Of a stretch of 64,000 nt of DNA, positions 45,659 through 59,480 are shown piece by piece. The position numbers and the translations under genes are program-made. Within the stretch, counting starts at the first letter, position 1; each line of letters opens with the position of its first letter. The stretch is from Capnocytophaga felis. GTDB lineage: Bacteria; Bacteroidota; Bacteroidia; Flavobacteriales; Flavobacteriaceae. The notes below the pieces were generated by a model that saw only the letters and a list, made by a program, of their open reading frames with translations, did no database searches and was not told the origin of the DNA. The stretch spans positions 1,163 through 65,162 of the forward strand of contig NZ_BLBC01000013.1 of assembly GCF_009684755.1 (NCBI RefSeq). The letters run 5' to 3'.

Positions 45659-45970
45659 ATGACCGAAAAACAATTGCAAAACATAAAAGAAATGGAGGAA
45701 ATTCTGAATAAAACAGAAGTTTTTACCTCTGAAGCCAAACAATTTTTAGAAAAATGGGAAAATTTGCTACCTGAAATCAAAAAACTATCCGATTATTACT
45801 ATGAAGGCGGGTGGAAAGACGATTATGATGCTTCCAACCGAGGAGAAATTCCTGAAGGAATCCCGCACGGGGTACTTTCCGAAGATGCCATCTACAACGC
45901 TATGGGAGAACATTATCTTACTGCAGTTGAGTTTCTAAAAACAGTTACGAAAATCATTGCAAATGAATAA
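45659..45970 (+). CDS. DUF4298 family protein
   Basis: This protein of 103 residues looks like DUF4298: an all-helical N-terminal half, then the conserved LSDYYYEGGWKDDYDASNRGE and GIPHGVLSEDAIYNAMGEHY. The function is unknown. It opens the accessory block between ftsI and murE and lies 3 nt ahead of the next gene, so they are likely co-transcribed. Confidence 0.7.
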   Translation: MTEKQLQNIKEMEEILNKTEVFTSEAKQFLEKWENLLPEIKKLSDYYYEGGWKDDYDASNRGEIPEGIPHGVLSEDAIYNAMGEHYLTAVEFLKTVTKIIANE

Positions 45971-45973
45971 ACA

Positions 45974-46894
45974 ATGAAACGAATCACCTTGCTTTCAGCA
46001 AATCACACCGATTATCATCTCGGATTTGAAGTGCAATCGCCCAAGCCGAAATTTTTTTCGTGGGACACTACCTATGAGGAAATCATCGCATCGCCTTTGG
46101 TGGAATGGGACAGCCCTTTTGATTTGGATTATGAGGTGTATGAATATTATTATTTCAAATATCCGGTGCGGGTAGGCAATTTGCTTTTTTCCAAATTTGA
46201 ATTTCGGATAGACAACCCTCAACGCAGAGATATTGCCGTGCAAGAATATTATGCCAATGGCGACAAACAAGTAGAAGCATTTGATTTTTGGCAAGTGCAT
46301 CAGCAATTAGAAAAACATTTAACCCTTGATAAAAGCTACGAAGCTTACGAAAACCTCTATTCGTTTTTTCACAAAGACGGAATCACATTTCTGGTCATTT
46401 ATTATGGAGAACCACCGCATCAATATGTATTTTTTAATATTATCAATGCTCGTAAATATCCCGAACTCATTACGCCTATTGAAAATGAAGACAACATACA
46501 ACTCACTGATTTTGTGTTATTTCCGAAGGATTATATCGGTATTGATACGGACTATCTAAAAAACGAAGCCGTTAAACGCCGTCCACCTCTGCTGACGGAA
46601 AGGTTTGGAAATAAAGCCGTTTTATGGAAAGATGAGGTGAATAAACAACTCGGGGTAAGTGCGGGTAAGTTTTGCAATGTTTTTCCGCTGTCGGACATCA
46701 AAAAAGTGGACATCGACCGAATGCTTCCTGCCAAAGGCGGTGGTGCCGATACCTTGCGAGTGTATTACAAAAAAAGAAAATACCCAACGGCAATTCTCAA
46801 TACCAAAGAATATGATTTGGACAATTATTTGCCCCAATTAGAAAAATTCTTCGGTAGGTCTATTGAAGTAACAGGGTTTTATTATAATTGTTAA
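45974..46894 (+). CDS. uncharacterised protein, paralogue A
   Basis: This 306-residue soluble protein has no family I recognise. It is clearly paralogous to the gene at 47333-48244: both share ITLLSxNHTDYHLGFEVQSP near the start, RRPxLLTEKFGN-like and RMLPAKGxGAD blocks, and both end in YYNC. The C-terminal third, with PLSDIKKVDIDRMLPAK, may be a small alpha-beta domain. The invariant terminal Cys is odd and could be a modification or metal site. Confidence 0.7.
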   Translation: MKRITLLSANHTDYHLGFEVQSPKPKFFSWDTTYEEIIASPLVEWDSPFDLDYEVYEYYYFKYPVRVGNLLFSKFEFRIDNPQRRDIAVQEYYANGDKQVEAFDFWQVHQQLEKHLTLDKSYEAYENLYSFFHKDGITFLVIYYGEPPHQYVFFNIINARKYPELITPIENEDNIQLTDFVLFPKDYIGIDTDYLKNEAVKRRPPLLTERFGNKAVLWKDEVNKQLGVSAGKFCNVFPLSDIKKVDIDRMLPAKGGGADTLRVYYKKRKYPTAILNTKEYDLDNYLPQLEKFFGRSIEVTGFYYNC

Positions 46895-46928
46895 TGAACA
46901 GATTTTATGACATTTAAAAAATTAAATT

Positions 46929-47282
46929 ATGAATTACGATAACTTTTTTCTTCCTGCGGAAGATTTCGAGAAAAGCAAACATTTTTTTGCTGAGATTTTG
47001 GGCTTGGAAATCAAATTTGATTTTTCACCAATGGGAATGATTGCCTTTAAAGTGGGTAATGAAGAGGCTGCTATTATCTTAAAGGATAAGAAAAAATTTC
47101 CGAATGCAAAACCCACTATTTGGCTTGAAGTAGATGATGTAGTGGAAGTTTATGAGGATTTAAGGACAAAAGGCGTGGAATTTTTAACACCACCTTTTCC
47201 CATAAAAACAGGTTGGGCAGTCGAGTTTTTAGACCCTTCTGGCAATGTAATGGGTTTTACGGATTATCGTGCTAATGCTTAA
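46929..47282 (+). CDS. VOC-family (glyoxalase-fold) protein
   Basis: The 117-residue protein is a small vicinal-oxygen-chelate protein: two beta-alpha-beta-beta-beta halves with WLEVDDVVEVYEDL and GWAVEFLDPSGNVMGFTDY, where the late Glu is a typical metal ligand. Substrate unknown; such proteins include glyoxalases, dioxygenases and antibiotic-binding proteins. It sits between the two paralogues. Confidence 0.85.
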   Translation: MNYDNFFLPAEDFEKSKHFFAEILGLEIKFDFSPMGMIAFKVGNEEAAIILKDKKKFPNAKPTIWLEVDDVVEVYEDLRTKGVEFLTPPFPIKTGWAVEFLDPSGNVMGFTDYRANA

Positions 47283-47332
47283 AAACTATAAATCCACGAA
47301 ACAAGCCCCCTCACTAATAAACAAATGAAACT

Positions 47333-48244
47333 ATGAAACAAATCACTTTACTTTCAGAAAATCACACGGATTATCATCTCGGATTTGAGGTGCAATCTCC
47401 TGAACCGAAATTCTTTTCGTGGGACGCTACCTACGAGGAAGTTATCGCATCGCCTTGGGTGAAACAGATTTTTTATAAGGATTATGGCGAGGGGCAACTT
47501 AGTCGTCAATTTGCCTTTAAATTTCCTGTGCGAGTGGGCAATTTACTGTTTTACAACTTTGAATTTGGCTTTACAAGTAGGCAACGCACCGATATTGCCG
47601 TAAGAGAATACCGTTTTACGAGCAAAAAAGGGGCTTCTAAACACGATTTTTTACAGATTTGCGAGCAATTTAATAAAGACCTGTCGCACAGGGAAGTAGA
47701 TGAATATTTAGAAAATTCGTATTACAACAATCATACGGACGACATCAGTTTTCGTATGCAATATTATGGCGAGGCTCGGCATCGAGATTTCTTTTTATCT
47801 ATTTATAATACAAGGAATTATCACCAAATCGTCAAGCCTTTGGAAAACGCAATACAACTTACGGATTTTTTGGTTTTCCCACCAAAAGACATTCGGATGG
47901 ATGCCAATTACCGAGAAGACATTCGTGTCAAACGCCGACCATCTCTATTAACCGAAAAGTTTGGTAATCAGTCTATTTTATGGCGAGATGAGGAGAATCA
48001 GCAAATCGGTGTAAGTGTGGACAAATTTGTTCGGGTTTTTCCACTGTCAGACATCGAAAAAGTGTACATCGAGCGTATGCTTCCTGCCAAAGGACACGGA
48101 GCAGATTACATTTTCATACGATATAAAAACGAAAAATATCCCACCAAAATCCTTGAAGCCGAGAACAACTTTTTTGACAAGGTGGATTTAGAAAAAATCT
48201 TTAAGCAGAAGATTTTATTTGGTGGGGAGTATTATAATTGTTAA
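47333..48244 (+). CDS. uncharacterised protein, paralogue B
   Basis: This 303-residue protein is the paralogue of the gene at 45974-46894, with similar N-terminal (about 45 residues) and C-terminal (about 110 residues) blocks and a divergent centre. It also ends YYNC. The conserved ends and variable middle hint at a protein with a changing recognition part. The function is unknown. Confidence 0.7.
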   Translation: MKQITLLSENHTDYHLGFEVQSPEPKFFSWDATYEEVIASPWVKQIFYKDYGEGQLSRQFAFKFPVRVGNLLFYNFEFGFTSRQRTDIAVREYRFTSKKGASKHDFLQICEQFNKDLSHREVDEYLENSYYNNHTDDISFRMQYYGEARHRDFFLSIYNTRNYHQIVKPLENAIQLTDFLVFPPKDIRMDANYREDIRVKRRPSLLTEKFGNQSILWRDEENQQIGVSVDKFVRVFPLSDIEKVYIERMLPAKGHGADYIFIRYKNEKYPTKILEAENNFFDKVDLEKIFKQKILFGGEYYNC

Positions 48245-48313
48245 TCAAACACACGAAAGCGAATGTCCGTGCCAATTTGTTTCGTTTTATAATTATTAAA
48301 CAACACCATAAAA

Positions 48314-48763
48314 ATGAATACGATTTTTAACGATACACAACGAGAAAACCTCATCAAACGCATCGGCTTACTTACCGAAACAAAAACTCCGCGATGGGGA
48401 AAAATGAATGTATGCCAAATGCTCGAACACTTAAATCTGACCAATGAATATTTTTTAGGAAAAGACGGAAAGAAAGGAAAACAATCCTTTTGGGGGAAAA
48501 TTTTAGGAAAAATAGTTTTAAAACGATTAACCGGAGAAAAACCTATGCCTATCAATCTGCCCACGATGAAGAATTACAAAGCTCAGGAAACTTCTTCCGA
48601 TTTTGATTTTCAGAAGAACAAATGTATCGGGTTGGTTAAAGATTTTGAGCATTTCAACAATGATGATTTCATTCACGATTTTTTTGGAAAAATAACCCGA
48701 GAGCAAGTCGGTATTTTAGCCTACAAACATTGCGACCACCATTTACGACAATTTGGTGTGTAA
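48314..48763 (+). CDS. DUF1569 / DinB-like protein
   Basis: The 149-residue helical protein resembles DUF1569 of the DinB four-helix superfamily. The three expected metal histidines appear in MLEHLNLT and KHCDHHLRQFG. Members are thought to be metal-dependent thiol transferases or hydrolases. The sequence is entire; substrate unknown. Confidence 0.75.
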   Translation: MNTIFNDTQRENLIKRIGLLTETKTPRWGKMNVCQMLEHLNLTNEYFLGKDGKKGKQSFWGKILGKIVLKRLTGEKPMPINLPTMKNYKAQETSSDFDFQKNKCIGLVKDFEHFNNDDFIHDFFGKITREQVGILAYKHCDHHLRQFGV

Positions 48764-48839
48764 TGAACCAAATAGCGAAAAGGATTCGTTTTTGTTATAA
48801 AAAACGGAAACAATATTATTTATCAAAAAGAATTTTAAA

Positions 48840-49367
48840 ATGGAAAACAAAATGACAAAATCAAAAAAACTTTGGCTATATTTCATCATCACAATGGCGG
48901 TGTATTTGCTGATGGTTTTTGTCACTATCCCCACACTGAATCGTCTTGCCAACGGACTTGATATTATTGATGTATTACCCTTTTACGATGGCGAATATGT
49001 GGTGCGTTTGCTTGAATATTTAGAAAGTGAGGGCAGACATTACTATCTATACAGGCAAATCCCTTTGGATATGCTATATCCGCTATTGTATGCCTTTACC
49101 TATTGGAAAATTTTAAGCCATTTCATTGATAAATTGAACTTGAAAAGGATAAAATGGGTAGTTTTTTTCCCTATTGTCGCAGCAGTGTTTGACTACTTGG
49201 AAAATATAGGTATTGGTATATCGCTCTATCATTTTCCGTCGCTTTCAGATACTCTTTTGTCGGTACTGCCTTTTTTTAGTTTGCTGAAAACCCTCTTTGT
49301 AGTGCTGTATCTGTTAGCATTTTTCGGATTGGGAATTATGGTTTTGGTGAGAAGAAAGAAATTATGA
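48840..49367 (+). CDS. four-helix membrane protein, unknown
   Basis: The 175-residue protein has four hydrophobic helices (about 12-30, 72-90, 103-122 and 140-168) and a basic C-terminus (VRRKKL). No family recognised. It lies in the accessory block and points the same way as its neighbours. Confidence 0.7.
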   Translation: MENKMTKSKKLWLYFIITMAVYLLMVFVTIPTLNRLANGLDIIDVLPFYDGEYVVRLLEYLESEGRHYYLYRQIPLDMLYPLLYAFTYWKILSHFIDKLNLKRIKWVVFFPIVAAVFDYLENIGIGISLYHFPSLSDTLLSVLPFFSLLKTLFVVLYLLAFFGLGIMVLVRRKKL

Positions 49368-49449
49368 TAATTAAAAAACTCAATTTACTTTTTTTATATG
49401 TTTTTATCAATTTAGATAGCAAAACTTAAAAAAATGTATTAAAATTATA

Positions 49450-49457
49450 TAACTTTG
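49450..49457 (+). promoter_or_regulatory. -7 element before the SDR gene
   Basis: TAACTTTG lies 22 nt before the SDR start codon, without a clear -33 element. It suggests the accessory block has internal promoters. Confidence 0.4.
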
Positions 49458-49479
49458 TACATTAGTAAAGAATTTAACA

Positions 49480-50217
49480 ATGAAACTATCAAACAACACT
49501 ATTTTAATTACGGGCGGTTCATCAGGTATTGGTTGGGCATTAGCAGAGCGTTTTTATGAACTTGATAATAAGGTAATTATCACAGGAAGAGACCCTAAAA
49601 AATTGGCTCAAATCAAAAGCCAATACCCAAATATTCAAACTTTTGCACAAGATTTGACCCAGCCCCAAGCTCTTGATGATTTAGCCGCTTTTATTAAAGA
49701 AAATCACCCTGATTTAAACATTTTGATAAACAACGCGGCGGTGCAGTACAATTATTTGTTTACTGAAGAACGTGATTACGCCCAAAAAATAGATTACGAA
49801 CTGGCTATAAATCTGGCTATTCCAATGAAGTTAAGTGTTAATTTACTTCCTATTTTGTTGAAAAACAAAAATTCGGCAGTGGTCAATGTCAGTAGTGGAC
49901 TTTTTATTGCACCGAAAAAAACGGCTTCGGTGTATTGTGCCACCAAATCGGCATTGCATAGTTTTAGCCAAACGCTTCGTTATCAGTTAGAAAGTACACC
50001 TGTTAAGGTATTTGAAATCGTGCCTTCGCTCATCGATACGCCAATGACCCAAGGGCGTGGCAAATCAAAAATCAGCCCTGAAAAGTTGGTTGATGAATTT
50101 ATAAAAGGCTTTAAGTCAAATAAATACGAAATTTATATCGGCAAAACCAAATTGCTTAAATTCATACATCGCATTTTTCCGAAAGTGGCTTATAACATAA
50201 TGAAAAACGGATTGTAA
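49480..50217 (+). CDS. short-chain dehydrogenase/reductase (DltE-like)
   Basis: The 245-residue NAD(P)-binding enzyme has the cofactor site TGGSSGIG, NNAA (LINNAAVQ), catalytic Ser in NVSSG and YCATK. The C-terminal region is like the DltE group of SDRs. Substrate unknown. It precedes the cation transporter gene by 28 nt. Confidence 0.9.
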   Translation: MKLSNNTILITGGSSGIGWALAERFYELDNKVIITGRDPKKLAQIKSQYPNIQTFAQDLTQPQALDDLAAFIKENHPDLNILINNAAVQYNYLFTEERDYAQKIDYELAINLAIPMKLSVNLLPILLKNKNSAVVNVSSGLFIAPKKTASVYCATKSALHSFSQTLRYQLESTPVKVFEIVPSLIDTPMTQGRGKSKISPEKLVDEFIKGFKSNKYEIYIGKTKLLKFIHRIFPKVAYNIMKNGL

Positions 50218-50245
50218 TCACTTAAAAATCAAAGATAAAATTCAT

Positions 50246-51238
50246 ATGGAAAATCAGTTTAGTAATATGGATATAGAAAACATCTTAAAAGAAACCCCTG
50301 AGGCGTACAATGTGTTTCAAAAAATGCCCCTTTCGCACCGAAACGAATACATCAAGTGGATAAACGAAGCCAAAAAGCAAGAAACCAAAGAAAGGCGTTT
50401 GGAGAAAATGATAAGTATGTTACTTGATAAAATAAACAAGGAAAAAATGTACAAGACATCATTTAAAATATCAAAAATGGATTGCCCTTGCGAAGTGCAA
50501 ATGATAAAAATGAAGCTTGCAGAGTTGCAAAATATTCATTCAATGGAATTTAGCATAGATAATAGACTGTTAATTGTTTTTCATAGTGGTAACTATCAGC
50601 AGATTTTTCAGCACCTTAAAAGCCTACAATTAGACACTTCTCTGATTGATAGCAGTGCTGCAGATGATTACTCAAAAACAAATGACACCAATGAAAGAGT
50701 ATTGCTCTGGCGTGTTTTATATATCAATTTTTTCTTTTTTATTTTAGAAATGGCAACAGGATTTTTATCTGGTTCTATGGGGCTTATCGCCGATAGTTTG
50801 GATATGCTTGCTGATAGCTTAGTGTATGGACTTGCTTTATTAGCTGTTGGTACGAGTATCATTTATAAAAAACGCATTGCAAAAATAGCAGGTTATTTTC
50901 AAATATTTCTTGCCATTATCGGACTTGTAGAAGTCATTAAGCGATTTATTGGCAGTGAATCCATTCCTCATTTTCAAACGATGGCTTTTGTTTCGTTGCT
51001 GGCACTTATTGGTAACGCTCTTTGCTTGTATTTATTGCAAAAGAACAAAAGCCAAGAAGCTCATATGCAAGCCAGTATGATTTTTACTTCTAATGATGTC
51101 ATTATCAATATAGGGGTGATTATTGCTAGTGGATTGGTTTATTTGACTAATTCTAAATCTCCTGACCTTATCATCGGAGCCATTGTATTTTGCATTGTTT
51201 GGCAAGGGGCAATAAAAATTTTAAAACTCTCAAAATAA
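50246..51238 (+). CDS. OmdA-like / metal-binding / CDF cation transporter fusion
   Basis: The 330-residue protein joins three parts. Residues 1-67 (LPLSHRNEYIKWINEAKK-like, RRLEKMISML) look like the YdeI/OmpD-associated small domain. Residues 68-150 look like a heavy-metal-associated domain with a CPC motif (SKMDCPCEVQMIKMKL). The rest is a CDF transporter domain with about six helices and the metal-site segment ADSLDMLADS. A Met at residue 68 (MYKTSF) could be the start of the stand-alone transporter, so the OmdA part may be a fused neighbour. Confidence 0.75.
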   Translation: MENQFSNMDIENILKETPEAYNVFQKMPLSHRNEYIKWINEAKKQETKERRLEKMISMLLDKINKEKMYKTSFKISKMDCPCEVQMIKMKLAELQNIHSMEFSIDNRLLIVFHSGNYQQIFQHLKSLQLDTSLIDSSAADDYSKTNDTNERVLLWRVLYINFFFFILEMATGFLSGSMGLIADSLDMLADSLVYGLALLAVGTSIIYKKRIAKIAGYFQIFLAIIGLVEVIKRFIGSESIPHFQTMAFVSLLALIGNALCLYLLQKNKSQEAHMQASMIFTSNDVIINIGVIIASGLVYLTNSKSPDLIIGAIVFCIVWQGAIKILKLSK

Positions 51239-51271
51239 TGTAAATTAACTTTAATTAAAAAAGGAAATCAT

Positions 51272-51718
51272 ATGAAAAACGAATGTAAAATCATCGGCAT
51301 AGTGGTACGCACGACCAATGCCAACGGACAAGCCGCAACAGATTTGGGCAAACTTTGGGGACAATTTATGAGCGACACCATCGCAAAAATCCCCAATACC
51401 ATTTCAGAAGAAATTATTGCGATTTACACCGATTATGAAAGTGATTATCAAGGGGCTTATACCGCGATTATCGGCAAGAAAGTCAGTTCGTTAGACGAAA
51501 TTCCAAACGGAATGATTAGGCGAGAATTTCCTGCTACAAAGTTTCAGAAATTCATTGCCAAAGGAGAAATGCCCAATGCCGTTATGCAGACTTGGAAAAC
51601 CATTTGGGAACAAGATGAAGTGCTGAATCGTGCCTACCAGTACGATTTTGAAGTGTATGGTGAAAAATCCCAAAACGGCAGTGAGTCTGAAGTGGAGATT
51701 TTTATCAGCGTAAAATAA
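51272..51718 (+). CDS. GyrI-like effector-binding protein
   Basis: The 148-residue protein is a single GyrI/AraC-effector-type domain: an opening IVVRTTNANGQA strand, IAIYTDYESDYQGAYTAIIGKKV in the middle and QKFIAKGEMPNAVMQTWKTIWEQ near the end. Related proteins bind or hydrolyse small molecules, or inhibit gyrase. No DNA-binding domain is attached. Confidence 0.8.
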   Translation: MKNECKIIGIVVRTTNANGQAATDLGKLWGQFMSDTIAKIPNTISEEIIAIYTDYESDYQGAYTAIIGKKVSSLDEIPNGMIRREFPATKFQKFIAKGEMPNAVMQTWKTIWEQDEVLNRAYQYDFEVYGEKSQNGSESEVEIFISVK

Positions 51719-51729
51719 ACAACTCAAAA

Positions 51730-51813
51730 ATGGACACCTACATCGCACTCATTAGATGCTTTATACTAAAAAGAGCCTTCTCCTATGGGGTATATACATC
51801 GTTTAATTTTTAA
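51730..51813 (+). pseudogene. possible 5' remnant of a DUF1697 gene
   Basis: A 27-codon frame begins MDTYIALIR, the same opening as DUF1697 proteins and as the intact gene at 52696 (MNTYIVLLRG), and then loses all likeness before a stop. It looks like a deleted second copy, though so short a match could be chance. Confidence 0.35.
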
Positions 51814-51824
51814 AAGGAAATAAT

Positions 51825-52640
51825 ATGACACACGAAATACAAAACCGCAAAGGGGCAACCAAACTTGAAAACATTCCAGAACAAGTACTAAAATTATTGA
51901 ACGAAGGTACAATAGAAAGCGTTAATTTAACCGAGTGGCTTGCTGTAAATCATACGGATTTGGTGGCTACAGTGTTCCCCAAAATAGGGATTTCAAATGC
52001 GTATATTTCTGAAATTCAAGAGCTCATAGAAAATCAAAAAAAGCCGTCAACGATGAATACTATCAAGTTGATTGGAGCATTTCTTTATGAAAAATACGCT
52101 CAATCAACGGATTATTTAGCCGTTTTTGAAAAATTAGCCACACATTTATCTGATTCGGTGCGTTGTTATGCCACTTATTTTATGGCTCTGAACACCGATT
52201 TTTCGCTTGAAAAAAAGCTCGGCTTGTTACAGCCGTTGGTGGCAGACAAGCATTTTGGGGTGCGTGAAGTGGTTTGGATGGCACTCAGACCTGAATTGAG
52301 CCAAAATTTGGCATTTTCAATTGATTTTTTATCGGTTTGGGCAGAAAATAAAGATGAAAATATCCGTCGTTTTTCTTCGGAAGCCTTGCGTCCGCGTGGG
52401 GTGTGGTGTTCGCATATCGAGACCTTGAAAAATTCACCTGAATTAGCATTGCCTATTTTGGAGAAATTAAAATCGGATTCGGCTAAATATGTGCAAGATA
52501 GCGTAGGCAATTGGCTCAATGATGCGAGTAAATCTCGCCCCGACTTTGTGCAGGAGTTGTGCAAGCGTTGGGAAAAAGAAAGCCCTACAAAATCAACAGA
52601 GTACATCATCAAAAAAGCTTTAAGAACCATTTTAAAGTAG
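51825..52640 (+). CDS. DNA alkylation repair protein (HEAT-like)
   Basis: The 271-residue all-helical protein has repeated HEAT-like pairs and matches the DNA alkylation repair family (AlkC/AlkD group), with IRRFSSEALRPRGVWCSHI and SVRCYATYFMAL. Such enzymes recognise alkylated bases in DNA. It starts about 10 nt after the possible DUF1697 remnant; a REP hairpin lies right behind its stop. Confidence 0.8.
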   Translation: MTHEIQNRKGATKLENIPEQVLKLLNEGTIESVNLTEWLAVNHTDLVATVFPKIGISNAYISEIQELIENQKKPSTMNTIKLIGAFLYEKYAQSTDYLAVFEKLATHLSDSVRCYATYFMALNTDFSLEKKLGLLQPLVADKHFGVREVVWMALRPELSQNLAFSIDFLSVWAENKDENIRRFSSEALRPRGVWCSHIETLKNSPELALPILEKLKSDSAKYVQDSVGNWLNDASKSRPDFVQELCKRWEKESPTKSTEYIIKKALRTILK

Positions 52641-52649
52641 CAAAATATT

Positions 52650-52674
52650 GTAAGGGCGAAAAATGTTTCGCCCC
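52650..52674. repeat. REP-like hairpin
   Basis: GTAAGGGCGAA, loop, TTCGCCCC: a member of the GTAG/GTAA-headed REP family, 10 nt beyond the alkylation repair gene stop. It is the outlier, 2.6 kb before the main cluster. Confidence 0.7.
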
Positions 52675-52695
52675 AACATCGTAAAAACCAAAAAT

Positions 52696-53241
52696 ATGAA
52701 CACCTATATCGTCCTTTTGCGTGGTGTGATGCCCACAGGGAAAAACAAAATTCCGAGTATGGCTTTTCTGAAAGAAATTTTGGGAAAAGGCGGTTTTGTG
52801 AATGTAAAAACTTATATTCAGAGTGGAAATGTGGTCTTACAAACGGAGCTTTCCCCTGCGGAGGTGAGTAGGAAGGTACACGAACTCATCAAGGAAAACA
52901 TTGGAGCAGAACTCCCCGTGATTGTAAAAACCGCTGATGAAATTGCACAAGTTTTAAGCGAAAATCCGTTTACCGAAAATCACGACAGCAAACGCGTTTT
53001 CTTTACCCTATTTAACGATGAGCTACCACAAGCAATGGCAAACGAACTCAAAAAGCAGGATTTTGGCGAGGAAAAATTTGATTTTAGCGAAAAAGCATTG
53101 TATATGTATTTACCCAAAGATGCCAGTCGTAGCAAACTCAGTAACAATTTTTTAGAAAAGAAACTAAAAATCATTGCTACTACACGCAATTTGAATACAT
53201 TAACAAAGTTGGTAGCGTTGGCGGAGGAAATGGGAAATTAA
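52696..53241 (+). CDS. DUF1697 family protein
   Basis: The 181-residue cytosolic protein has the DUF1697 opening MNTYIVLLRGVMPTGKNKIPM-like sequence, the middle VKTYIQSGNVVL and the ending KLKIIATTRNLNTLTKLVAL. The function is not known. The start at 52696 is preferred; the earlier ATG at 52663 lies within the REP hairpin. Confidence 0.87.
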   Translation: MNTYIVLLRGVMPTGKNKIPSMAFLKEILGKGGFVNVKTYIQSGNVVLQTELSPAEVSRKVHELIKENIGAELPVIVKTADEIAQVLSENPFTENHDSKRVFFTLFNDELPQAMANELKKQDFGEEKFDFSEKALYMYLPKDASRSKLSNNFLEKKLKIIATTRNLNTLTKLVALAEEMGN

Positions 53242-53295
53242 TTCGTACTATTAGGAGACGGATATATCCGCTTCGATGATAACAAAAATGAAAAA

Positions 53296-53787
53296 ATGGA
53301 TTTTTATAAATATCAAAAACCTGTCGGAAAAATAGAAGATATTTCTGCATTACGCGATGAATTCATCACGATTTTCGATACCAAAAATCGTCAGGAAATT
53401 GTGTTATTCTGTTTGTCATTAGCACAACATCTCATAGACTTTACAAAGTTTGAGCCTTGTGATGAAATGCTGTTGGCTTTTGAGGCGATGAAAGAATGGC
53501 TTGATGGGAAAACCAATTATCATAAAGCAAGAAACATAAGCTTTCAAATCAGCAGATTAGCAAAAGAAGAAAATGATGTAGCAAAAGTAAAGTTTTACCG
53601 AACGATGGCTCAAATTACTGCAAGTCCGCACACTAAATTTCACGGATTATGGGCAACAGATTTCGCAATAACCCTTGTTAACAAAATGCTTCCTAACGAT
53701 ATGGAAGCCGTTAGAACAGAAAGAGAAAAACACATTGCTTTATTGAAAGCATCTTGTTTTAATAACGACGACGCTTTCCAAAGTTAA
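53296..53787 (+). CDS. helical protein, possible Imm-5-like immunity protein
   Basis: The 163-residue all-helical protein has long Ala/Glu/Lys-rich helices with HKARNISFQISRLAKEE and HTKFHGLWATDFAITLVNKML. The pattern resembles Imm-5-like putative immunity proteins, but only loosely. It ends 22 nt before murE. It could equally be an unrelated helical bundle. Confidence 0.55.
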   Translation: MDFYKYQKPVGKIEDISALRDEFITIFDTKNRQEIVLFCLSLAQHLIDFTKFEPCDEMLLAFEAMKEWLDGKTNYHKARNISFQISRLAKEENDVAKVKFYRTMAQITASPHTKFHGLWATDFAITLVNKMLPNDMEAVRTEREKHIALLKASCFNNDDAFQS

Positions 53788-53809
53788 ATTTTTTTATTAC
53801 ACAAAAACT

Positions 53810-55261
53810 ATGAACCTAAAAGATATATTACAAAACATAGAAATCATCTCCTTTTTTGGAGAAATCAATACCGAAGTAGGCGATTTGGTGCAAGACTCGC
53901 GGTTAATTAAGCAAGGCGATGTATTCGTTGCTGTAAAGGGTACAGCATCAAACGGGCATCAGTTTATAAACAAAGCCATCGAAATGGGAGCGAAAGTCGT
54001 CGTTTGTGAGGAAATTCCGCAAGAAATCACTTCGGAAATCATTTATATAAAAATAAAGGATACCACTTCCGCTTTGGCAACAATGGCGAGTAATTTCTAC
54101 GAAAATCCGTCGGAAAAATTGAAATTGGTGGGAATAACAGGCACGAACGGAAAAACCACCACTACGAGTTTACTGTATCAATTGTTTAGAAAAGTAGGCT
54201 ACAAAGTAGGGCTTATTTCTACCATCGCTATTTATGTAGATGAGCAAAAGTACGACACCAAAAACACCACACCTGACATTCTCACAATCAATAAATATTT
54301 GAAAATGATGGTCGATGCAGGTTGTGAATACTGCTTTATGGAAGTGAGTTCGCACGGCGTGGAGCAACGACGCATCGAAGGTTTGCAGTTTGCGGGGGGC
54401 GTGTTTACGAATTTGACGCACGACCATTTGGACTATCACCAAACCTTTGCCAACTACCGCGATGCCAAAAAGAAGTTTTTCGACCAATTGCCAAAAACGG
54501 CTTTTGCTCTTACCAATATCGACGACAAGAATGGTGGAGTGATGTTGCAAAATACCAAAGCTCAAAAGAAATCGTACGCTCTGAAAACAATGGCGGATTA
54601 TCGTTTGCAAATTTTGGAAAATCAATTTTCAGGTTTGGTGCTGAAAATAGACGGACAAGAAGTTTGGACAAACCTCATCGGGCGGTTCAATGCTTATAAT
54701 CTGTTGGCGGTTTATGCTGTTGCAGATTTGCTTGGAATCGATAAAATAGAAAACCTAACGGCTTTGAGTACGTTGCAATCGGTAGGCGGACGGTTTCAGT
54801 ATTTTGTTTCGAAAGACAAAATCACCGCAATTGTGGACTATGCCCACACACCCGACGCCTTGCAGAATGTGTTGGATACCATCAACAACATACGCACTAA
54901 AAACGAACAACTCATCACAGTAGTGGGTTGCGGAGGCAATCGCGACAAGAGCAAACGCCCTATAATGGCAGATATTTCGACCAAGGAAAGTACCCGAGTG
55001 ATTTTCACATCAGACAATCCGCGAGACGAAGACCCACAAATCATTTTGGGCGAAATGGAAGCAGGCGTATCGGCAGAAAATTACAAGAAATTCGTAACCA
55101 TAACCGATCGCCGTCAGGCAATAAAAACCGCTTGTCAGTTTGCCCAATCAGGAGATATTATTCTCATTGCAGGAAAAGGACACGAAGCCTATCAAGAAGT
55201 AAAAGGCGAACGCACCCATTTCGATGATATGGAGGAAGTGAAAAAAATATTAAACGTGTAG
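53810..55261 (+). CDS. murE: UDP-MurNAc-tripeptide synthetase
   Basis: The 483-residue enzyme adds the third residue to the peptidoglycan precursor. It has the ATP site GITGTNGKTTTTSLLY, the middle-domain HTPDALQNVL and a C-terminal DNPR motif (TSDNPRDEDP), which marks meso-diaminopimelate as the amino acid. The stop codon TAG (55259-55261) is itself part of a REP hairpin that starts at 55258. Confidence 0.97.
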   Translation: MNLKDILQNIEIISFFGEINTEVGDLVQDSRLIKQGDVFVAVKGTASNGHQFINKAIEMGAKVVVCEEIPQEITSEIIYIKIKDTTSALATMASNFYENPSEKLKLVGITGTNGKTTTTSLLYQLFRKVGYKVGLISTIAIYVDEQKYDTKNTTPDILTINKYLKMMVDAGCEYCFMEVSSHGVEQRRIEGLQFAGGVFTNLTHDHLDYHQTFANYRDAKKKFFDQLPKTAFALTNIDDKNGGVMLQNTKAQKKSYALKTMADYRLQILENQFSGLVLKIDGQEVWTNLIGRFNAYNLLAVYAVADLLGIDKIENLTALSTLQSVGGRFQYFVSKDKITAIVDYAHTPDALQNVLDTINNIRTKNEQLITVVGCGGNRDKSKRPIMADISTKESTRVIFTSDNPRDEDPQIILGEMEAGVSAENYKKFVTITDRRQAIKTACQFAQSGDIILIAGKGHEAYQEVKGERTHFDDMEEVKKILNV

Positions 55262-55357
55262 GGGCGTATTGAATACGCCCAATGATGTAACATTGTATAT
55301 GCCCAAACAAATAATTTTGATAAAAATGATAATAAGGGCGTATTGAATACGCCCCTA
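55258..55357. repeat. inverted pair of REP hairpins after murE
   Basis: Copy 1 (55258-55280) GTAGGGGC-GTATTGAATAC-GCCC and copy 2 (55333-55357), its inverse, ending in GCCCCTAC. The GTAG heads face outward with a 50-nt centre, the BIME layout known from E. coli. Confidence 0.85.
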
Positions 55358-55394
55358 CAATGCAATAAACAACGACAACAATAACAAATCAAAA

Positions 55395-56117
55395 ATGATA
55401 AAAATTTTAGCTGAATCTTTTTTGCAGGTCGCTCTGTTGCTTCCTTTTGCAATTTTATTTCTGAAAGAAAAAAGCAAAATCAGCTTCATACGATTATTGA
55501 TTTTTGTAGGTTGCTATATGGTGTATCAGCTTTTTATCGTGCTTCCAAAAATCTTAGAATTTGACATAGTAGAAAGCCGTTGGAATTGGGAAGGAAAAGC
55601 ATTGGGTGTGATTTGTGGAATAGGTTGTTATTTGTTTTTCAGAAGGTATTTTAGAGAAAATGATTTTTTCACAATAAGACAAAATAAAGAAAATTTTAAA
55701 CCAAGTCTCATTGTAGCGGTGGGAGTGGTATTATTATCAACTGTAGTTTGGTTTTTATTGGGTAAATCCGAGTTTGATGTGGAAACATTGGCTTTTCAAA
55801 TATCCTTACCGGGCGTTGATGAGGAGATAATATTTCGCGGAATATTACTTGGACTTTTGGCTTCCTCATTGAAAGAAAAAACAGCTTTTGTAGGAAATCC
55901 GAGCGTTTTATTAACGGCAATTCTATTCGGATTTATGCACGGTTTGACACTTGATAAAAACTATGCAGTGGATTTCGATTTCATTTATTTCATACAAACC
56001 GCTTTTGCGGGATACCTTTGGGGATGGATAACCCTAAAAAGTCGAAGTATATTGTTAGCGATTTTGTCCCATAATTTCAGTAATTTTTTGGGAACATTAG
56101 CCACAATGATTAAATAA
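55395..56117 (+). CDS. CPBP-family intramembrane metalloprotease
   Basis: The 240-residue membrane protein has about seven helices and the CPBP/ABI motifs DEEIIFRG (catalytic Glu pair), FGFMHG and SHNFSN. Members include CAAX prenyl proteases and bacteriocin self-immunity proteins. Given its setting, either general membrane proteolysis or self-immunity is possible. Confidence 0.88.
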   Translation: MIKILAESFLQVALLLPFAILFLKEKSKISFIRLLIFVGCYMVYQLFIVLPKILEFDIVESRWNWEGKALGVICGIGCYLFFRRYFRENDFFTIRQNKENFKPSLIVAVGVVLLSTVVWFLLGKSEFDVETLAFQISLPGVDEEIIFRGILLGLLASSLKEKTAFVGNPSVLLTAILFGFMHGLTLDKNYAVDFDFIYFIQTAFAGYLWGWITLKSRSILLAILSHNFSNFLGTLATMIK

Positions 56118-56138
56118 CCCGTTCATTAGAAATAAAAT

Positions 56139-56675
56139 ATGAAACTAATCACAGACGAAAAAATATATCTCGAATTGGTGAAATTATCTGATGCTGAAAC
56201 AATTTTCAACACCATCAATACGCAAAGAGAATATTTAGGCGAGTGGTTGCCTTTTGTTCAGTATATTAAGGAGGTTACTGATGAGGAAAATTTCCTAAAA
56301 TCAGCTTTGGAAACGATGGAACAGACCAAAGAATATGTGTTTTGCATTCGAAAAGAGGGCAATTTTGTTGGGCTTATCAGTTTTATCAAAACGGACAAAC
56401 TCAATCAGAAAACTGAAATCGGTTATTGGATTTCAGAAACATACCAAAAACAGGGCATCGTAACGAAAGCCACTAAACGAATGTGTGAATTTGCCTTTAC
56501 CGAAATGGGAATGAACCGCGTACAAATCCGTTGTGCCACTGAAAACATTGCAAGTAAAAGCATTCCGAAGCGATTGAACTTCGTTTTTGAAGGCATCGAA
56601 CGGCAAGGCGAACGCGTTTCTGAAAATGTATTTCGAGATTTGGAAGTGTACAGCAAACTGAAAGAGGAATTTTAA
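56139..56675 (+). CDS. GNAT N-acetyltransferase (RimJ/RimL type)
   Basis: The 178-residue enzyme is a RimL-type acetyltransferase: LVKLSDAETIFNTIN, TEIGYWISETYQKQGIVTKAT (acetyl-CoA site), MNRVQIRCATENIASKSI and LNFVFEGIERQGE. It likely acetylates a protein N-terminus or a small amine. Degenerate remains of a REP-like sequence follow its stop (near 56680). Confidence 0.92.
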   Translation: MKLITDEKIYLELVKLSDAETIFNTINTQREYLGEWLPFVQYIKEVTDEENFLKSALETMEQTKEYVFCIRKEGNFVGLISFIKTDKLNQKTEIGYWISETYQKQGIVTKATKRMCEFAFTEMGMNRVQIRCATENIASKSIPKRLNFVFEGIERQGERVSENVFRDLEVYSKLKEEF

Positions 56676-56747
56676 AATCGTAGGGACAAAAATTATCCAA
56701 AGACAATTTTTCGGATATTTGTTTAATCTATAAAATTTTGTAAAATA

Positions 56748-57263
56748 ATGAAAATAAAGAATTTATTATCAGGCGTATATGTTTTTGTTATGATGGTATT
56801 TTTGCTAACGGCTTGTTCAGGAGATGGCGGTTCTGACGGCGGGAACACAGGCGATTTTTATATGCGTTTTAAGGTTGATGGTCAGCAAAAGGAATACAAA
56901 ACCGCACTGCTCACAACCTATAAATACCACAAAATTCGTGGGAATCACTTTATGTTGAATGTCGGTGGCAGAAAAGAAGCCTCTATTGATTCCGAGTCAA
57001 TGACTTTGGATTTGTATGTTCCCGAGACTTCTAATTTTGATTTAGGTGTTGGAAGTTATACCCCTACTCAAAATCAGTATCGTTTGGATATTACATTTTT
57101 CAATAATGGGAATCATTTTGACGACCCCAATAATTTTGTGGTTACGATTACCCAAGTGGACAAAAATACGGTAAAAGGAACCTTTGCAGGGAGGTTAGAA
57201 ACAGGACTAACCATTACAGAAGGAGAATTTTACACCAAAGTACGCTATCAAGAAGTGGAATAA
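56748..57263 (+). CDS. secreted lipoprotein, unknown function
   Basis: The 171-residue product has a lipoprotein signal with lipobox LLTAC (mature from Cys22 to 23), a Gly/Ser-rich linker and then a beta-rich domain with FYMRFKVDGQQKEY and KNTVKGTFAGRL, the style of small Bacteroidota surface lipoproteins. No known family. Confidence 0.75.
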   Translation: MKIKNLLSGVYVFVMMVFLLTACSGDGGSDGGNTGDFYMRFKVDGQQKEYKTALLTTYKYHKIRGNHFMLNVGGRKEASIDSESMTLDLYVPETSNFDLGVGSYTPTQNQYRLDITFFNNGNHFDDPNNFVVTITQVDKNTVKGTFAGRLETGLTITEGEFYTKVRYQEVE

Positions 57264-57337
57264 ATTTCACAAAATATGCTTCTATGAGGTTTGCAAAACG
57301 CACCGCAACCGTAGGAACAAAATTACCATTTACGAAC

Positions 57338-57403
57338 GTAGGGGCGTATTGCATACGCCCAATAATAATGAAATAAAAAAGGGCATATGCAATACGCCCC
57401 TAC
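57338..57403. repeat. inverted REP pair upstream of the RAYT gene
   Basis: Copy 1 (57338-57360) GTAGGGGC-GTATTGCATAC-GCCC; copy 2 (57381-57403) is the inverse and ends GCCCCTAC. They lie 23 nt ahead of the RAYT start, like the REP pairs that flank RAYT genes in enterobacteria. Confidence 0.88.
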
Positions 57404-57425
57404 GACAACAAAAAACAAATCAACA

Positions 57426-57995
57426 ATGAAAAAATACAATCCCGACATACACAAAAGGCGTTCAATTCGTCTAAAAGGATATGATTACAGTCGTGAAGGA
57501 TTGTATTTCATTACGATTTGTTGCCAAAACAAAGAACATTATTTTGGGGAAATTATAGACGGAGAAATGCGATTGAACGAAATAGGAGAAATTGCCCAAA
57601 AATGTTGGAGAGACATTCCTAATCATTTTAAAAATGTTTTGTTGCATTCATTTGTGGTGATGCCCAATCATATACACGGAATTATAGAAATCGTAACACG
57701 TGTAGGGGCAAATCAACATTTGCCCCATAATGAAACGACAAATCAACATTTGCCCGATGATAATGGGGCGAAATATCTTTCGCCCCTACGGGGGACGTCA
57801 AACACGATTGGTTCGATTGTGCGTGGTTTTAAAATTGGTGTAACCAAATGGGTTCGTGTCAATACGGATATTCATCAAATCTGGCAACACAATTACCACG
57901 AACACATTATCCGAAATGAAGAATCGTATTTCAAAATTCACGAATACATCGAAAACAATCCCGCCAAATGGGAGGAAGACCGATTTTATTCATAA
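57426..57995 (+). CDS. REP-associated tyrosine transposase (RAYT)
   Basis: The 189-residue Y1-type single-strand DNA transposase has the RAYT opening KRRSIRLKGYDYSREGLYFIT, the metal-site HUH pair in MPNHIHGI, and a late Tyr in YHEHIIRNEESYFKIHEYIENNP as catalytic residue. RAYTs move or multiply REP hairpins. Two REP hairpins (57702-57726 and 57765-57789) are inserted in frame between the HUH and the Tyr parts, yet the frame is open. The start is set at 57426 because the earlier ATG lies within a REP copy. Confidence 0.9.
   Translation: MKKYNPDIHKRRSIRLKGYDYSREGLYFITICCQNKEHYFGEIIDGEMRLNEIGEIAQKCWRDIPNHFKNVLLHSFVVMPNHIHGIIEIVTRVGANQHLPHNETTNQHLPDDNGAKYLSPLRGTSNTIGSIVRGFKIGVTKWVRVNTDIHQIWQHNYHEHIIRNEESYFKIHEYIENNPAKWEEDRFYS
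57702..57789. repeat. REP hairpin pair inside the RAYT gene
   Basis: GTAGGGGCAAATCAACATTT ... GCCCC (57702-57726), a half-copy CAAATCAACATTTGCCC (57738-57754) and the inverse GGGGCGAAA ... CGCCCCTAC (57765-57789). They encode the otherwise unexplained segment from RVGANQHLPHNE to AKYLSPLRGT of the transposase. Confidence 0.8.
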
Positions 57996-58007
57996 TATGT
58001 GTGTTGG

Positions 58008-58162
58008 GTAGGGGCGAAACATTTTTCGCCCTCATAAAATAACCAAATAAAAATCGTAAGGGCAAAAAATATTTTGCCCCTACAATACACCCAAACAAAA
58101 GGGCTTATGCAATAAGCCCCTACAACGAAACGCAAACGTAAGGGCTACACAATACGTCCTAC
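58008..58162. repeat. cluster of four REP hairpins after the RAYT gene
   Basis: Hairpins at 58008-58032 (GTAGGGGCGAA type), 58056-58083, 58101-58123 and 58138-58162 with alternating orientation and different inner stems but constant GGGC/GCCC bases and GTAG or CTAC heads. The whole gap between RAYT and mraY is filled with them. Confidence 0.85.
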
Positions 58163-58185
58163 AACAACAAAAAAACAATTTAAAA

Positions 58186-59400
58186 ATGCTATATTATTTA
58201 TTTGATTATTTAGAAAAAGAACACAATTTAGCGGGTGCCGGATTGTTTCAGTATTTATCATTCCGAGCGGGAGTGGCGGCGATTCTTTCGCTGCTCATTG
58301 CTACCATTTTCGGGAAAAAGATTATCCGCAAACTATACGCTTTGCAAGTGGGCGAAACCATCCGCGACTTAGGATTACAGGGACAAAACGAAAAAGCAGG
58401 AACACCAACAATGGGCGGAGTCATCATCATCTTGGCAACGCTCATACCCGTACTCTTATTTGCCGAACTAAGCAACGTTTATATCATACTATTGGTGGTT
58501 TCTACCTTGTGGATGGGAACTATCGGGTTTTTAGACGATTATATTAAAGTATTTCGGAAGAATAAAGACGGACTTAAAGGAAGATTTAAAGTCTTGGGGC
58601 AAGTAGGATTGGGATTGTTCGTCGGGGCGATGCTTTATTTCAATCCGAATGTAACCGTGAAGAACGAAAACATCAAAGCCTCTACCGTTTCGGAAATACA
58701 AATGCAATCGGAAGAAGTCAAATCTACTAAAACGACCATTCCGTTTCTGAAAAATAACGAATTCGATTACGCCGAACTCATCTCGTGGGCAGGCGAAAAC
58801 AGTAAAGAATGGGTATGGCTCATCTTTATCCCCGTTGTGATTCTCATCGTTACGGCAGTTTCCAACGGAGCCAACTTAACGGACGGCATTGACGGGCTGG
58901 CGGCGGGCAGTTCGGCAATTATAGTGCTTACACTCGGGATTTTTGCTTGGGTTTCGGGAAATATCATCTTCTCGCAGTACTTAAATATTATGTACATCCC
59001 CCGCGTGGGCGAAATGACCATTTTTATTGCCGCCCTTGCTGGTGCACTTATCGGATTTTTATGGTATAATACGTATCCGGCTCAGGTTTTTATGGGCGAT
59101 ACGGGCAGTTTGACCATCGGTGGAGTAATTGCCGTGATTGCCATCTCGGTACGGAAGGAACTACTCATTCCCTTGCTGTGCGGCATCTTTCTGGCGGAAA
59201 ACCTTTCTGTGATGATGCAGGTTTCGTACTTTAAATATACCAAAAAGAAGTATGGCGAAGGCAAACGCATCTTTTTAATGTCGCCCCTACACCATCATTA
59301 TCAGAAGAAAGGCTATCACGAAAGCAAAATCGTGATGCGATTTTTGATCATAGGCATCATTCTGGCAATTATGTCGTTTGTAACGTTGAAAATTCGATAG
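58186..59400 (+). CDS. mraY: phospho-N-acetylmuramoyl-pentapeptide transferase
   Basis: The 404-residue membrane enzyme makes lipid I from UDP-MurNAc-pentapeptide and undecaprenyl phosphate. Motifs: [33 protein letters not shown] and HHHYQKKG, with about ten helices. It is the third dcw segment, 2.9 kb from murE, and is flanked on both sides by REP hairpins. Confidence 0.97.
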
Positions 59401-59409
59401 AAAACGAAC

Positions 59410-59480
59410 GTAAAGGCGTATTGCAATATACCCCTACACAGGAAAAACACAATGTAAGGGCGTATGCAATATGTCCTTAC
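59410..59480. repeat. inverted REP pair after mraY
   Basis: Hairpins at 59410-59436 and 59454-59480 (GTAAAGGC and GTAAGGGC heads) have GTATTGCAATATAC-type stems, degenerate members of the same family. They are 10 nt beyond the mraY stop. Confidence 0.75.

Follow-up and report, generated by a model that had tools for sequence, protein, structure and literature searches.

A group 4 RAYT gene and its GTAG hairpins between murE and mraY of Capnocytophaga felis: a probable REPtron with a candidate two-part correspondence between protein and hairpin

The window analysed here, 64,000 nucleotides of the Capnocytophaga felis genome (assembly GCF_009684755.1, contig NZ_BLBC01000013.1, positions 1,163 to 65,162), carries at 57426..57995 (+) a gene for a 189 amino acid REP-associated tyrosine transposase (RAYT), surrounded by short GTAG-headed hairpins of the repetitive extragenic palindromic (REP) kind. 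The gene follows murE and a group of accessory genes, precedes the start of mraY, and is the single match in the genome (2.88 Mb in 37 contigs; labelled G000 in the comparisons). The finding of a RAYT with its hairpins is real and of an already known kind, as TnpAREP subclass 2.4, or RAYT group 4, with GTAG REPs and in-frame REPs has been published (Quentin et al. 2018, PMC6006769; this and the other PMC papers below are cited from excerpts of their text). We consider that the locus is probably a subclass 2.4 REPtron, a chromosomal Y1/HUH transposase with its cognate GTAG REPs, in which the protein would read the hairpin in two parts and a central module of the gene would move by recombination.

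The protein encoded at 57426..57995 groups with TnpAREP by profile, fold and motifs. It has the histidine pair H82-x-H84 (NHIH, 81-84), W153-Q154 and YIENNP (174-179, with Y174), which is the motif set of subclass 2.4/group 4 (HUH as NH[IFV]H, WQ, YIxNNP), and its predicted model shows the TnpAREP fold. The REPtrons of this subclass in PMC6006769 are alike in these motifs, in GTAG REPs of canonical and double-foot form with a GC-rich lower stem, in REPs placed in frame between HUH and Tyr, and in their presence in Bacteroidetes. The C. felis gene likewise has flanking GT[AG]G REPs whose stem base consists of three GC pairs, a double-foot REP at 58056..58083, and in-frame REPs, and from its motifs, in-frame REPs and REP form it is assigned to subclass 2.4. 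An IS200/IS605 insertion sequence (subclass 1.1) was rejected, as the gene encodes YIENNP instead of Y[IV]ENQ and one genome match is not a multi-copy element. PF01797 (Y1_Tnp) was rejected as a detector of the subgroup, as it matched in 2 of 20 genomes of the genus and missed the C. felis gene itself; a family profile was therefore used for the RAYT search, and it found the same seven RAYT-positive genus genomes as a search with the single protein. The gene is under purifying selection (dN/dS 0.063/0.43 and 0.056/0.549).

Three parts of the gene are distinguished below. The N-terminal end (residues 1-56, 57426..57593, +) includes beta-1, the central module (residues 57-152, 57594..57881, +) holds the rest of helix aB, the HUH strand, a REP-bearing loop and helix alpha-3, and the C-terminal end (residues 153-189, 57882..57995, +) holds WQ, beta-4 and the helix of the catalytic Tyr. 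The loop (residues 93-124) has a predicted local distance difference test score (pLDDT) below 50 in the model, and both in-gene REPs lie within it. Two types of gene recur in the comparisons: type A RAYT genes, to which the C. felis module belongs, carry AAA/GAA-armed REPs, and type B genes carry GTA-armed REPs.

The genome has 17 hairpins of the strict pattern GTAGGGGC-N6..14-GCCC (0 in the reversed control), and nine of these copies lie within 2.9 kb at the RAYT gene (55258+, 55358-, 57338+, 57403-, 57702+, 57789-, 58008+, 58083- and 58123-). A looser search, requiring at least 7 of 8 pairs, gave ten hairpins in the window, all at 52654-58119 (two in the reversed window, four in the complemented one). 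GTAA-headed hairpins are also present at 52650, 58056 and 59454, as are weaker hairpins at 58138, 59410-59437 and 56680. Inside the RAYT frame are a type A GTAG REP (57702..57725, +) and its inverted type A partner (57766..57789, -). A type B inverted pair (57338..57403) lies immediately upstream of the gene, and right behind it is a type A GTAG REP (58008..58031, +), followed by the type A double-foot REP (58056..58083), with a GTAA head on the plus strand and a GTAG head on the minus strand, and by a GTAG REP with the inner stem TTAT/ATAA (58101..58123, -). The head of another type B GTAG REP (55258..55280, +) provides the stop codon (TAG) of murE, and its inverted partner lies at 55336..55358 (-). 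Six of the ten well-formed hairpins make up three inverted pairs (55258/55358, 57338/57403, 57702/57789), and as two REPs in inverted order these would be REPINs. The original prediction, made from the letters of the window, held that at least a dozen GTAG- or GTAA-headed hairpins, mostly in inverted pairs, centre on the transposase, and it took further copies in the genome as a check; these observations are confirmed, and the interpretation placed on them is partly supported. Its expectation of mostly intergenic copies needs qualifying because of the two inside the RAYT gene and the one that supplies the murE stop.

The inner stems had been described as variable yet self-complementary, and this held in a pairing test of 108 listed copies (45 distinct hairpins) from five genomes with a RAYT match, with G213 and G216 left out, against 2000 shuffles. 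All four inner pairs were formed in 40 of the 45 distinct hairpins (shuffle mean 8.0, maximum 16), and 173 of 180 inner-pair cells were paired (mean 118.1, maximum 135). Compared with its likely counterpart in the sisters G216 and G201, the hairpin at 52654-52673 has a double change in inner pair 1. Such compensatory stems indicate selection on structure. The inverted pair at 57338..57403 corresponds in G216 to one double-foot REP (L056:3744-3766), without the spacer and the second hairpin, which matches the suggestion of PMC6006769 on how double-foot REPs arise.

A rival explanation is that the hairpins are mainly RNA elements, terminators or stabilisers of mRNA 3' ends, that spread without need of a RAYT. 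Terminator-like sites number 20 where 7.7 were expected, these hairpins making up four of the 20, and REP-rich species without a RAYT match exist. Those four hairpins point to the minus strand, however, while the genes are on the plus strand, no Rfam family was found at the gathering score between 43000 and 64000 of the window, and the concentration of copies at the RAYT gene and the GTAG head would be left unexplained. We think this explanation very unlikely.

The RAYT gene is a mosaic. Gene order is identical in G000 and G216 (murE, two shared genes, a lipoprotein gene, RAYT), and their RAYT genes share about 88% of DNA positions at the ends and about 56% over residues 57-152. By segment, identity is 90% for residues 1-45 and 87% for residues 153-188, 47-60% in three of four middle segments, and 83% at the HUH motif. 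Maximum chi-square placed the borders at residue 57 and at residues 152-155 in each of the four type A-B pairs examined, with a divergence of 0.43-0.45 inside and 0.10-0.13 outside (chi-square 66-77; maximum of 60 permutations 23). Among 8256 RAYT pairs, 20 have both ends at least 0.80 identical, and in these the identity of the module is bimodal, being at most 0.55 in 11 pairs, above 0.70 in nine and between 0.55 and 0.70 in none; six of the 11 mosaic pairs fall within the Capnocytophaga/Bergeyella set. Mosaics recur outside the genus, in other Bacteroidia and between genes of different families. The pattern suggests that the central module is a cassette swapped between RAYT genes. The same pattern could arise without any exchange if the middle of the gene simply evolved faster than its ends, and the loop is indeed hypervariable in subclass 2.4 (PMC6006769), with three other pairs showing weaker segments (chi-square 19-22 against permutation maxima of 14-19). 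In G000 and G201a, which are both type A, the middle is nevertheless as conserved as the ends and no segment exceeds the permutations. A middle that is merely fast also fits poorly with the bimodal distribution and with the opposite combination, a similar middle joined to different ends, which was found in 47 of the 115 pairs whose modules are at least 0.70 identical (an end at or below 0.60). We rate this explanation as highly improbable. In G251 (L170) three RAYT matches stand in tandem, one with a stop, and two (also L164) have near-identical ends with different central modules and REPs.

REPs inside the gene are a common property of these RAYTs. They were found in 58 of 89 RAYT open reading frames (ORFs) of the first, best-scoring set, compared with 5 of 89 in the reversed control and 10 of 89 in the rest of the gene. 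In 29 genes the in-gene REPs resembled the flanking REPs of the same gene (similarity 0.90) far more than those of other genes (0.54). The type of the flanking REPs agreed with the type of the RAYT in six of seven genes, two unclassified hairpins aside. In the Clostridia-type RAYTs from metagenome-assembled genomes (L047, L048, L050, L052) a REP occupies a second in-gene site, before HUH, where it encodes VGA...RPQL or RPEL, and in G211 (L031) a REP recodes the C-terminus of the RAYT.

Each hairpin was divided into a foot, the outer 4 bp on each side, and an apex, the remainder, and these were set against two protein identities, that of the ends and that of the central module, in a combined set of 130 RAYTs (77 with in-gene and 55 with flanking REPs). 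In the discovery set (61 genes with in-gene and 39 with flanking REPs) the association of apex with module, given the ends, was 0.49 for in-gene and 0.46 for flanking REPs, and that of foot with ends, given the module, was 0.50 and 0.39 (0/999 in every case), with crossed terms of -0.01 to 0.07. The prediction of a split code was fixed before it was tested in a second set of 41 genes (16 with in-gene and 16 with flanking REPs; 19 of 60 replication loci were without an intact HUH..WQ..Y ORF). Three of the four predictions were significant there, namely apex with module (0.43 and 0.45, 0/999 each) and foot with ends for in-gene REPs (0.33, 1/999). Variants run on the combined set (de-duplication, foot lengths of 3-5, a trimmed module, removal of the Capnocytophaga genes) gave 0.29-0.49 for apex with module, and for foot with ends 0.28-0.45 (in-gene) and 0.03-0.26 (flanking). 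In both sets the dissociation index was larger than that of any of 1000 random partitions of the columns. The strongest links to the apex, again in both sets, fell on R133, G134, T127 and S130, mainly at the start of predicted helix alpha-3 (128-146), and for in-gene REPs C60 was high too; the foot was linked most strongly to I14, N156, E159 and H155, mainly within 12-22 and 155-159. Across these 130 RAYTs the apex of the REP thus appears to track the central module, chiefly helix alpha-3, and the foot the protein ends, the N-terminal end included. This layout fits the contacts of E. coli TnpAREP (4ER8), in which GTAG is contacted by beta-1, around beta-4 and by the C-terminus, and a base in the bulge by alpha-3 (PMC8266576).

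The locus could also be pictured as an ordinary subclass 2.4 REPtron in which apex and module agree through linkage, REPs and module having been inherited together on one converted piece of DNA, and not through recognition. The in-gene REPs do lie within the exchanged segment, and near relatives share both REPs and module. Flanking REPs, on the other hand, are found outside the protein ends, and still it is the module that their apices follow (0.43), not the ends (-0.06). Apex and module also remain associated in 22 genes without in-gene REPs (0.38 for their flanking REPs, 1/499) and after genes at least 60% identical were dropped (0.29, 0/499), and the best residues are clustered where helix alpha-3 begins. 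On balance we hold linkage to be unlikely. We lean slightly towards the view that group 4 RAYTs have a separable code in two parts, in which the ends correspond to head and foot and alpha-3 of the exchanged cassette corresponds to the apex; a cassette swapped with its loop-embedded REPs may then found a new hairpin family in one step, together with a matching template.

Several results weigh against this view or against the setting of the locus in it. The association of foot with ends did not replicate for flanking REPs in the second set (0.08, 240/999), fell to 0.03 when the genes with flanking REPs were strictly de-duplicated, and was 0.01 in the 22 genes without an in-gene REP. Crossed terms were not always nil (foot with module 0.07, 38/999, in the discovery set; apex with ends 0.07, 16/499, and 0.06, 19/499), and of 129 circular shifts of the column blocks, 4 in each set gave a dissociation as high as the one observed. 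The second set, which scored lower, had a smaller share of genes with in-gene REPs (16 of 41, although the head pattern was relaxed slightly for this count). The upper stem-loop of the E. coli REP has a non-specific role only (PMC8266576). G000 itself is the exception to the agreement of types, with type B REPs upstream of a type A RAYT, and the idea that REP type follows RAYT type genome-wide was rejected, as G000, G201, G202, G203 and G211 each hold both arm kinds. The protein scores below the cut-offs of both PF01797 (17.8 against a curated 23) and the NCBIfam RAYT model NF047646 (54.9 against 80, E 8.7e-15), to which it is related. Finally, the expectation that copy number would be linked to RAYT presence failed: in Capnocytophaga, 19 of 20 genomes have pattern hits and 7 of 20 a RAYT match, and copy counts did not differ significantly (P = 0.15), although some of the 19 rest on stemless chance matches (e.g. 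G205, G206).

Part of the hairpins in RAYT-less relatives may have another origin. A MITE-like repeat (MITE, miniature inverted-repeat transposable element) with CTTTTCGGACAGCC at its right end holds part of the GTAG hairpins in RAYT-less Capnocytophaga (G199, partly G207 and G204; L135-L140, L101-L120, L121-L134), and in these relatives some hairpins could have spread as passengers of an element with such ends. The right end, with no more than two mismatches, occurred at a constant 11-13 nt in 5 of 7 fetched copies of G199, 3 of 22 of G207 and 2 of 31 of G204, and in none of 2000 random 60-mers of the window. Most fetched G207 and G204 copies lack it, and the window is not concerned. We regard this origin as possible though doubtful.

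The probable REPtron lies in the murE-mraY interval of one Capnocytophaga branch, to which C. canis belongs. The RAYT is directly upstream of mraY in G000, G201 and G211 and about 2.1 kb upstream in G216, and in G200, G202 and G203 the murE-mraY interval is enlarged and without a RAYT. Six Capnocytophaga in which both genes were found (G204, G205, G208, G209, G212, G214) have no RAYT match or hairpin between them. The RAYT units of C. canis and of Bergeyella zoohelcum, a species of a different genus, share 98.8-99.6% identity, and in B. zoohelcum (L042) several accessory genes of the window have rearranged counterparts beside its RAYT at 81-99% identity. Between G000 and G201 the RAYT pair has a dS of 0.43 and two accessory genes have 0.30 and 0.49, but mraY has 2.2, which points to exchange between species. 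A search for carriage of the RAYT by plasmids or phages gave distant matches only, in four plasmid records and one phage record, all below 60% identity.

In this branch the accessory genes (45659-53787 and 55395-57263 in the window) fill gaps of the dcw cluster and are shuffled between species, and REPs were seen as apparent synteny breakpoints among them. A GTAA-headed REP (52650..52673, +) lies between two accessory genes, and two degenerate GTAA/GTAG hairpins (59410..59480) lie behind mraY. Other arrangements occur in relatives: G213 (L086:1-480) has a tandem array of three REP types in one orientation at a spacing of about 42 bp, and G211 (L088, L089) has at three places an inverted pair of unlike REPs, AAATTATATTT with GTAATGCTTAC, resembling a REPIN with unequal arms. 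Further pairs of unlike REPs are also present.

The likeness to known systems is partial. E. coli TnpAREP belongs to group 2, not 4, and its REPs are bulged, in-gene REPs being described as unique to subclass 2.4 (PMC8266576). The GTAG REP super-family (Di Nocera et al. 2013, PMC3733652) also consists of GTAG-tagged stem-loops, many close together in opposite orientation and some in genes, but Bacteroidetes are absent from its list of phyla with GTAG repeats, CGTC repeats having been found there. In the gammaproteobacterial system (PMC2817692) RAYTs and flanking REPs coevolve as well, with trees of whole proteins and of REPs sharing topology, whereas here the parts of protein and hairpin seem to pair separately and to be reshuffled. 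The excerpts of PMC6006769 contain no statement of module exchange or of separate reading of apex and foot, and no report of either was found in the open-licence PMC literature or in the excerpts of PMC8266576, PMC2817692, PMC3686654 and PMC3733652. As far as this literature shows, the proposed module exchange and the apparent two-part correspondence of protein and hairpin are new.

In the mechanism we propose, the RAYT would bind the REP in two parts as folded single-stranded DNA. The ends of the protein (the beta-1 region, WQ-beta-4 and the Tyr helix) would read the GTAG head and the lower stem; reading of the upper stem and loop would fall to the central module, helix alpha-3 in particular. 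The enzyme may cut beside the hairpin, in the manner of E. coli TnpAREP in vitro, and help hairpins to spread, perhaps mostly locally. The central module would move between RAYT genes by recombination, taking the loop-embedded REPs with it, and therefore one swap could alter tip specificity and bring the matching template.

RAYTs and REPs occur in many bacteria, and the question addressed is how one fold serves many hairpin families and how such families start. If the code is true, specificity would be modular and helix alpha-3 would allow it to be predicted, mosaic pairs found in nature, G000 and G216 for example, would be ready-made domain swaps, and the REPs within the gene would be more than a curiosity, being part of how specificity is passed on.

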